DNA of 64,000 nt, from positions 1,047,566 to 1,111,565 of the forward strand of contig CM044958.1 of assembly GCA_024516035.1 (NCBI GenBank), in the 5' to 3' direction. The position numbers and the translations under genes were made by a program. Origin of the DNA: Bactericera cockerelli. Taxonomy: Eukaryota > Arthropoda > Insecta > Hemiptera > Triozidae. The notes beneath the pieces were generated by a model. That model ran no database searches, was not told the origin of the DNA, and worked only from the letters and a program-made list of their open reading frames with translations. Shown here in pieces: positions 1,151 through 63,975 of this stretch (its first letter is position 1; each line of letters starts with the position of its first letter).

Positions 1151-4100
1151 CTGCAACTGGTAAGTCGAAAGTTGGTTCGGTAAAAAATCAACATTAATAA
1201 CTTCAAAAAAAAAAAAAAAATCAGGGCGTCCATTGTAATCCTCTCACAACTGTAATTGTTTTTCCAAAAGCTATGCCGAGGAGGTGCTGTTAAGTTAGGT
1301 ATTTAACAACATTAATATGCTAATCTTACCAACTGTGTATTGGTATAGTGGTTAAGGCGATAGTCTGCTATGTCAGTTAACGTAGGGGTGCCTTGGTTCG
1401 AATCGTACCTAATGCATCAATTTCTCCTCATTTATTTGAGTATGTGACAACATAATGAGAAGACTCTTTGGGTTAGGTGGTAGAAAATGCTTTGAGCATT
1501 AACCTAGCCTGGTGGTTACCTTCTACTTTTTCTTGACAAAATAGTCTTCACATATAATTATGAATGACCCGTCAGAAAAAAAGAAATAAAGAAACAATAC
1601 TAGAAATTAGATATCAAGGGAAAAAATGAGTATCATTATTATTAAAATATCTTAGAAGCCAAATAAAAATGGCTTATGATGGGTCCTCTGTATACAAAAA
1701 AAAATATGAAAAATAAAACAAATGATTTATTATTACCTGAGGGCCTCTGTATACAAAAATATATGAAAAATATGTAAAACAAATGATTTATTATTATTAT
1801 TATTATTATTATTACCTGAGGGCCTCTGTATACAAAAAAATATGAAAAATAAAGCAAACGATTTATTATTATTATTACCTGAGGGAAAGCATCGATTTCC
1901 GGTGAGGGAGCAGCGTGCTTGATGTGGCACCGACTTCTTACTTCCTCCGAGTACGCCACCAGGGTAGCGAGGTAGGGCACACTCTCAGGAGTCACCTCAA
2001 ACTTGTCCCGCTTGTTGTACTTGCCCACAATACCTGCACAGTGGCGTGGACACGGTCTTATTATTTATTTACAATTTTAGACATAAAGATACGAGTACAA
2101 TAGTACATAGTCAATCGTCATTATAAAGTAAGAAAAAAAAGGTAAAGTAAAATTAATAGGTAAAACAAAATAAAATAATAGTATTAATAGCTATAATAAA
2201 TACAGTGAATAGTGTTGTATTAAATCCTAATTTTATGTCTGTGTCCATTCTATGTTTTCTATGTTTGTGTAGGTGTATGGTGCTATTGTGTGCAAGTGTG
2301 TTGTGGTTTCGTTTTTTAGTGTGTCTTGACTGAGTGATTTCAAGTTTTCTGGTAACCTGTTATAAAGATTTATTCCGTAATGTTGGGCTGATTGTTGTCC
2401 ATATGTTGTGTTGGTTTGGCTGTTTTGGATGTGATGTGCATGCCTTGTGTTATAATTGTGTTTTTCATTGTTTTGGGGTAGTGTACTTTTTTGTCTGTGT
2501 ATGTTCATTATTGTTTCTATGTAGTAAACTATTTCTGCTTTCTATTATTTCTGTTATTATGTAGAAATTATTTCTGCTTTCTATTAACTATAAGGTATAG
2601 AAAGTATTTATTTATTTATTTTTGGTTGGAGGCAGGAAAAGATCTTTTAAAGGCACCCAGGTCATCTTGACTTGTGGTGTGGGATTTCCACCCACTAAAA
2701 ACCCACCTTCTCAAAGAGCTAACCGCACCTGGAACCGAAAGATATCATTACTTCAAGATAGAAAGTATTGTTGAATAAATTGACGCCATTAACCTATTAT
2801 GTGGGGGCAAGGAATCTCTTATGGACCTCTCTATAAATAAATATTCATTAAAAAAAATATATAAAGTATTGATTGGTACTAAACAAAAAAAATTTTAAAA
2901 ATAAAAAGTACGTCTAAAAACAAATTAAAATTTTAAAAAAGAATACATTGAAAAAAAAAAAAAATGTAAATAAACTTTTTTCACTTAGCATTTTCCCAAA
3001 CCTGCTGGGTTTTCGCAACCTCTACTTCATGGTTGAGGTTGATAGTTTCTAGCACTTCTAATGATAGATACATACATGTAGAATTGTAGATAGCTTTATT
3101 TGTACTTAAACATAAAAATGCATCGTATGCCACATTTTATGGCCGGATGTCCGGTCCTATCGACAACCCTGATTAGAGCGTTAATGATGTGTGTTATTTT
3201 CTTTTGGCCTGACAGAGCTGGTACCTCATCTGCGTTCTCCAGTGCAACATTTTGCTGCGCAACTGTTTTGTATCGAATTTAAATGGGAAGTGTTGCAAAG
3301 TGTTGCGGAGTCAGTGGGGTTAGATCTCATTTGATTCTAATGGAAGAGAGGAGCATGAAACGTTGCGCAACATAATGTTGCACTCGGTGGGATCTCGGGT
3401 TAAGTAAGTCTTACCCAGTATGGAGGTGAGCAGGACTGTATCTTACCCAGTATAGAGGTGAGCAGGACTGTATCTTACCCAGTATGGAGGTGAGCAGGTG
3501 TGTATCATACCCAGTATGGAGGTGAGCAGGCGTGTATCTTACCCAGTATGGAGGTGAGCAGGCGTGTATCTTACCCAGTATGGAGGTGAGCAGGACTGTA
3601 TCTTACCCAGTATGGAGGTGAGCAGGCGTGTATCTTACCCAGTATGGAGGTGAGCAGGCGTGTGTGTATCTTACCCAGTATGGAGGTGAGCAGGCGTGTG
3701 TGTATCTTACCCAGTATGGAGGTGAGCAGGCTTGTGTCTTACCCAATATGGAGGTGAGCAGGCGTGTGTTTTTTTTTTTTTTTTTTCAACAAATAACTTT
3801 TATTTATTTACATTTTTTTGTTATTTACAATGGATGAAAAGAATATAAATTTCAAAAAATACAAAGACAAAATTTTATATCATAAGTATCCCATAGCCTA
3901 ATGTACTTATTAAGTATGTGCTAGGCTATGGTTATGTGATATAAATTTTTAATAATTGATGAAAAAAGTGTTTTTCTCTCTCCTATAGTTATTAAAATTA
4001 AAATGTTATTTAGCCAGCGTCGATGGCATGTAGAAAACACCAGTTCCCTTCAGTACACCGAAGTTAAGCGACATCCAGCGAGGTTAAGACTTGGATGGGT

Positions 4101-62947: not shown

Positions 62948-63975
62948 CTGAGGGGAGAATAGTGTGTATACATTTTTATTTTTATATCACGAATGGTCCT
63001 GACATATAGGATTATGAATGACCTGTCTCCTCATCATGGCCTCTATCAGGTTGCATAGCTTGGTCTTGATATGCACGGCGTGGACTGTCATGTCTATATG
63101 ACGGACATACCTGAGGGGAGAATAGTATGTATACATTTTTATATGACCAATGGTTCTGACATATATGATTATAAATGACCTGTCTCCTCATCATAGCTTC
63201 TATCAGGTTGCATAGCTTGGTCTTGATATGCACGGCGTGCACTGTCATGTCAATGTGACGGACATACCTGAGGGGAGAATAGTAAGTATACATTTTTATA
63301 TCACGAGTGTTCCTGACATATATGATTAGGAATGACCTGTCTCCTCATCATGGCTTCTATCAGGTTGCATAGCTTGGTCTTGATGTGAACGGCGTGCACT
63401 GTCATGTCAATGTGACGGACATACCTGAGGGGAGAATAGTATGTATACATTTTTATTTTTATATCACGAATGGTCCTGACATATCGCCTCTGATAACACA
63501 AAGAGGCGTAAACAACATTTTCGAAATTTTACAGGAGAGCCAAATCGAGTTTTCTTGTGCATAAATTTTCTGTTCACGGTAGGAAAATCATCACTTCCCT
63601 GTACCCGTGAATGACCATACGAACTTTTTCTGTTGCCAAATATGATTATGGAACTGTGACTATCGATTTACGCCTATTTGATTTGTCTGAAAAAGAGAAA
63701 ATGAGGGATACGCCTGATTTCAATTTTTGTTGTATCTTTTCTTTGGATTATAATTGGATTACGTCTATTTGTGAGAACAATATATAGCACAAGTAGACTC
63801 AATCCAAGCAATAAAACCGATTTCAAAAATTTGTGGTTTACGCCTCTTTGTGTTATCAGAGGCGATCTATGATTAGGAATGACCTGTCTCCTCATTATGG
63901 CCTCTATCAGGTTGCATAGCTTGGTCTTGATATGCACGGCGTGGACTGTCATGTCAATGTGACGGACATACCTGA
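62948..63975 (-). repeat. Exon 1 acceptor-side array, ~155-bp units
   Basis: Four extra units, each with ~90 nt of exon 1 ([20 protein letters not shown]) plus the CCCCTCAG acceptor and ~60 nt of intron. One unit is interrupted by a 380-bp MITE (63,485-63,864). The array may continue beyond 64,000. Confidence 0.9.
63485..63864. mobile_element. MITE with ~29-bp perfect TIRs
   Basis: 380 bp, ends CGCCTCTGATAACACAAAGA and its reverse complement. Each TIR itself is a hairpin (CGCCTCT ... AGAGGCG). Inserted in an exon 1 array unit; flanking ATAT/ATCT may be a 4-bp target duplication with one change. Family not recognised. Confidence 0.8.

Follow-up and report, generated by a model that had tools for sequence, protein, structure and literature searches.

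The window analyzed here, a stretch of 64,000 nucleotides from the psyllid Bactericera cockerelli, carries on its minus strand 23 exons of the neurofibromin gene NF1 (positions 1040..62947), which is partial at both ends and runs from E1 (62773-62947) to E23 (1040-1156). All splice junctions are of the GT-AG type, and the joined exons form a single open reading frame of 1508 aa without a stop, confirming the gene identity and the exon count of the original prediction, which was made from the sequence alone. The protein encoded by E1 to E22 aligns with residues 998 to 2437 of the solved chain of human neurofibromin. Its best database match was neurofibromin from Cacopsylla melanoneura (97% identity over the full query), the other proteins among the best 120 of 282 matches displaying 79% identity or less. 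In the alignment with the C. melanoneura protein, 1427 of 1470 aligned columns were identical and the protein was continuous over all 21 junctions that link E1 through E22, apart from a gap of one residue that precedes the E17 junction by a few residues. We infer from the open reading frame and from this protein of another species, whose record leaves unstated whether it derives from RNA, that the junctions attached to the exons are probably correctly spliced. The coding sequence is intact when these junctions are used. The GC content is 56% in the exons and 36% in the other sequence.

Comparison of E1 to E22, each with 60-nt flanks, with their own window by blastn (E23 being outside the query set and the matches of E9 and E10 being covered in part) revealed local same-strand copies spanning the donor site of E3, E5, E6, E7, E8, E10, E20, and E21, and the acceptor site of E1, E4, E12, E13, E15, and E16. 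With the addition of E14 and E22, repeats across one splice site were found at 16 exons, exactly those listed in the original prediction; we rated 14 of them as strong (8 donors and 6 acceptors) and the donor repeats of E14 and E22 as weak. The exonic part of the repeat units comprises about 5 to 117 nt, and the unit length varies from site to site (about 19 to 157 bp, with 16-bp subunits at E10). Among the blastn matches listed, boundary-spanning copies were 85 to 100% identical to the copy attached to the exon. E2, E11, E17, E18, and E19 had no boundary-spanning local same-strand copy in the window according to blastn; matches of E19 consisting of simple repeat sequence and including a single exonic base were not counted. 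These observations apply to one gene in one assembled sequence.

All donor copies are located downstream and all acceptor copies upstream of the exon concerned, without exception among ten donor-side and six acceptor-side arrays, as originally described. The presence of an intact exon at the edge of each array had been considered unexpected. Both this and the one-sided placement are, however, forced by tandem geometry combined with splicing. In a tandem of donor-spanning units, the first copy adjoins the exon body, whereas the last copy does so in a tandem of acceptor-spanning units. Splicing uses the copy attached to the exon body, which leaves the remaining copies in the intron. Use of any other copy would be expected to break the reading frame in nearly all cases (see below).

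All the arrays lie on the minus strand, as does the gene. Among the donor arrays, the one with the most copies is that of E6 (44424..45894), with 38 copies of a 23-bp unit, consisting of 19 exonic nt followed by GTAG, that are organized in two blocks. E8 is followed by 24 copies (38771..41323) with a unit of 67 bp close to the exon and of 71 to 78 bp farther away. The array of E21 (3408..4517) comprises 11 copies spaced by 32 to 36 bp, with 20 to 29 exonic nt, and is located about 720 bp from the exon. Seven copies of a 77-bp unit with 50 exonic nt were found at E5 (57076..57674), and six copies at E10 (36183..36376), where subunits of 16 and 30 bp are accompanied by a distal copy that contains 45 exonic nt. 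E20 has three copies (5447..7245) with 112 to 113 exonic nt, and E3 two copies (59271..60167) with 43 to 45 exonic nt in addition to intron-only repeats. The donor of E7 underwent a single duplication (42910..43058; shift of 89, 48 exonic nt, 85% identity). The two weak cases are a two-copy 19-bp repeat with about 5 exonic nt at E14 (24177..24214) and, at E22 (1682..1885), repeats in a TAA-rich context that include about 7 exonic nt.

Among the acceptor arrays, E13 is preceded by 25 copies of an 89- to 94-bp unit with 65 exonic nt (28593..31033), E16 by 11 copies of a unit of about 89 bp with 59 exonic nt, or 117 in two of them (11910..14497), and E12 by 10 copies of a 109-bp unit with 50 exonic nt (31949..33143). 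The array of E1 (62862..63978) has four extra copies with 86 exonic nt, three of which are spaced by 157 to 163 bp, and that of E15 (22843..23438) has three copies of about 129 bp with 72 exonic nt. The acceptor of E4 is represented by a single duplication (58413..58622) with a shift of 146, covering 30 intronic and 34 exonic nt at 94% identity. More than one round of duplication occurred at some sites, as indicated by the two unit lengths at E8, the subunits at E10, and the three blocks of the E16 array, between which lie two stretches that resemble each other and carry a 174-aa reading frame. A dispersed 22-mer is present in each unit of the E15 array (23072, 23203, and 23332). This 22-mer had 10 matches with up to 3 mismatches for 0 expected, including a small array of its own (34114-34233) and single sites at 58225 and 60536.

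The E5 array contains a long terminal repeat (LTR) retrotransposon (window positions 46573-57076), beyond which lies a truncated copy of the E5 unit, at about 46.5 kb. The LTR stretches that were compared (234 nt) are identical, and a GTATC target duplication was read by eye. Since the element interrupts the array and its ends are identical, the array must predate an insertion that is itself very recent. Between the LTRs, the reading frames at 50.3 to 55.4 kb are long and by eye resemble a nested non-LTR element. We had considered the stretch between E5 copies as repair filler and dropped this assignment in view of the copy beyond the LTR element, since the stretch may be native intron; for this reason, we make no claim on breakpoint filler or microhomology.

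The original prediction held that splice sites are straddled more often than expected from random duplication. This was borne out at the level of clusters and in a comparison of splice sites with positions outside the clusters, and more weakly when entire repeat tracts were considered. Of the 26 local direct-duplication clusters, 14 straddled a splice site, versus 1.8 expected from random placement of one unit per cluster (P = 1.5e-10, clusters being treated as independent and none being dropped). In this test, E14 belonged to none of the 26 clusters and the E22 cluster was scored as non-straddling. None of the clusters straddled the junctions of E9, for which blastn matches were covered in part, or of E23. 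Several of the 12 non-straddling clusters resemble mobile-element sequence. A long near-identical direct duplication without exon content, apparently also mobile-element sequence, was found in the intron between E13 and E14 (window positions 24885-27758). In a comparison by site, a local copy was present at 15 of 46 splice sites versus 8.6% of the 8389 non-exonic positions sampled outside the 14 straddling clusters (P = 4e-6, the sampled positions not being independent).

When the splice sites were shifted along the window relative to whole expanded tracts, the result was divided. Clusters were hit 14 times versus 6.9 expected (p 0.0009), whereas the number of sites hit was not significantly increased in this test (14 versus 12.8 expected, p 0.38). 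By raw position, a local copy was present at 33% of the splice sites and at 26% of all sampled positions, the latter frequency being raised by the arrays, which occupy a large part of the introns. Since the expanded arrays are copies of the junctions and dominate the whole-tract tests, we gave more weight to the cluster-level test, although both results stand. On the exon side, a local copy was present at 32% of the positions no more than 10 nt from a junction and at 2% of those 100 to 200 nt away. There was no comparable decrease with distance on the intron side, because the arrays lie there. Two exon-derived copies span no junction, namely, a 47-nt copy of an internal part of E1, located 380 nt downstream (about 62421-62468), and a 115-nt copy of E3 in inverted orientation, located about 2 kb upstream in the intron between E1 and E2 (near 62.2 kb).

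At the sixteen boundaries, we counted 149 copied junctions, 95 of donors and 54 of acceptors, although the copies of E10, E14, and E22 were matched on 16 nt only, so that chance matches are possible at these three exons. The splice dinucleotide GT or AG is retained in 145 of the 149 copies. Use of the copied junctions is predicted to lead to a stop in 144 cases and to a frameshift in 4, the single in-frame junction belonging to the weak E22 repeat. Thus, the copies would be frame-breaking decoys in 148 of 149 cases.

Ordinary intronic minisatellites, like the NF1 arrays, consist of short units repeated in tandem that have expanded locally. Unlike the latter, ordinary intronic minisatellites are, to our knowledge, not anchored to a splice junction. 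A closer counterpart exists in amphioxus, in which the consulted parts of two reports describe tandem duplications of exon-intron boundaries under the name of mirages in the genes for Adh3, the globins BflGb6 and BflGb9, PGBD5, and troponin C (PMC3087553, PMC3902484). According to the same parts, mirages occur at donors or acceptors, have units of variable length (150 to 160 bp in the globin genes), and leave splicing undisturbed, and the Adh mirage is cited there for length variation, even somatic (via PMC3087553, PMC3902484). The original prediction knew of no named process for such repeats; the mirage minisatellites supply a name. As far as these partial sources go, amphioxus mirages and the psyllid NF1 repeats have in common a unit that spans the boundary, occurrence at either type of boundary, variable unit length, and the retention of splice signals by many copies. 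They differ in that the amphioxus repeats, as described there, affect one or a few junctions per gene, whereas NF1 is an insect gene with repeats at 14 to 16 of its 23 exons and up to 38 copies. In a limited search by title and start of abstract, with most subscription journals outside its reach, none of the entries listed reported repeats across splice junctions in insects, psyllids included. On the basis of these partial sources, what looks new here is the occurrence of such repeats in an insect and their density within a single gene, the phenomenon itself having already been named in amphioxus.

We consider it probable that the NF1 repeats are mirage-type minisatellites, i.e., junction-spanning tandem duplications that arose with a bias for exon edges and were then expanded to up to 38 copies. 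The duplications would arise through ordinary break repair or slippage, at a rate raised at exon edges, and the arrays would expand via slippage or unequal exchange. The step from 56% to 36% GC from exon to intron and co-transcriptional breaks are candidates for the edge bias; R-loops or staggered nicks are possible causes, as candidates only. Intronic copies would persist because splicing discards them, with the authentic junction staying attached to the exon, and exon-internal duplications would be removed by purifying selection. Selection preserving the exon, a cause proposed in the original prediction, accounts for the missing exon-internal duplications but not for the excess of duplications at exon edges over introns. 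The weak whole-tract test, the small contrast in raw positions, and the two exon-derived copies spanning no junction are points against this explanation, and the strong excess depends on counting a single unit for each cluster.

The alternative that survives best is a bias for exons as such, in which GC-rich or transcribed DNA breaks more and selection leaves the straddling duplications, splice sites having no role of their own. It is a version of the preferred explanation and is compatible with it, and we see for it a substantial chance, if somewhat short of even. The GC difference between exons and other sequence is in its favor, most duplications inside an exon would disrupt the frame, and one exon-internal copy, that of E1, does sit in an intron. 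In a single gene, an exon bias is inseparable from a splice-site bias; the decrease in local copies on the exon side from the junction inward speaks for the latter, though straddling units under selection would yield the same profile.

We regard as unlikely that there is no positional bias at all, the duplications originating evenly, the exon-internal ones being purged, and a few straddling cases having become striking through expansion. This reading would fit the number of sites hit in the sliding test and the raw position frequencies, but those tests count expanded arrays that are themselves copies of junctions. The tests that take one unit per cluster, or compare splice sites with non-exonic positions outside the clusters, gave a clear excess.

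A third alternative, in which the arrays represent intermediate stages of intron gain via duplicated AG|GT proto-splice sites, is quite improbable. In the consulted parts of the literature, tandem duplication of exonic sequence is described as a source of new introns, including in Drosophila (PMC3443670, PMC2891723), an AG|GT pattern is expected of introns made in this way (PMC3443670), and the authors of the amphioxus globin work proposed intron gain for mirages (PMC3087553). In NF1, the acceptor AG is followed by GT at the start of 15 of the 23 exons, and AG|GT marks both ends of 9 of the 22 introns. However, GT exon starts also occur at exons without arrays. As far as the partial sources go, both processes involve a local duplication that copies splice signals, but in intron gain exonic sequence is duplicated and the intron is new, whereas the NF1 arrays copy a junction that already exists and leave the coding sequence unchanged. 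Furthermore, the E6-E7 junction, the site of the array with the most copies, coincides in position with additional residues of a human NF1 isoform (P0066). These residues are presumably the product of alternative exon 23a. The coincidence in the protein alignment suggests that the array was added to an E6-E7 intron that is itself old. Codons at 13 of the 22 junctions are invariant in six outgroup proteins, and the window differs from them at 4 of these 13, versus 64 of the 738 remaining invariant columns (p 0.02). In two of these four, at E8 and E19, Val (GTN) takes the place of an Ala that all six outgroup proteins share, so that the exon begins with GT. The GT exon starts may reflect an acceptor preference of the lineage or traces of duplication. 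Finally, an assembly artefact inflating or inventing the repeats is highly implausible, since copies differ among themselves, consensus units differ between sites, some units hold nested duplications, and one array is broken up by an LTR insertion that has a target-site duplication.

Beyond NF1, we tentatively propose, as an idea more likely wrong than right, that junction-directed duplication is genome-wide in psyllids and independent of that in amphioxus. Dozens of competent decoys would then surround most exons, and the choice of splice sites would be made by position or exon context rather than by the sequence of the site. If the phenomenon is general in psyllids, mirage minisatellites would be no peculiarity of amphioxus, and a second lineage would be available for finding the mutational cause. 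The 149 natural decoy junctions in a single gene could serve to probe how the spliceosome chooses the site attached to the exon, and the duplications would provide raw material for intron change.

Two matches to 5S rRNA in Rfam were detected on the plus strand of the window (4013-4134 and 37420-37512), which are possibly short interspersed elements derived from 5S rRNA. Weak tRNA matches were found on the minus strand at positions 830-886 and 8391-8475.
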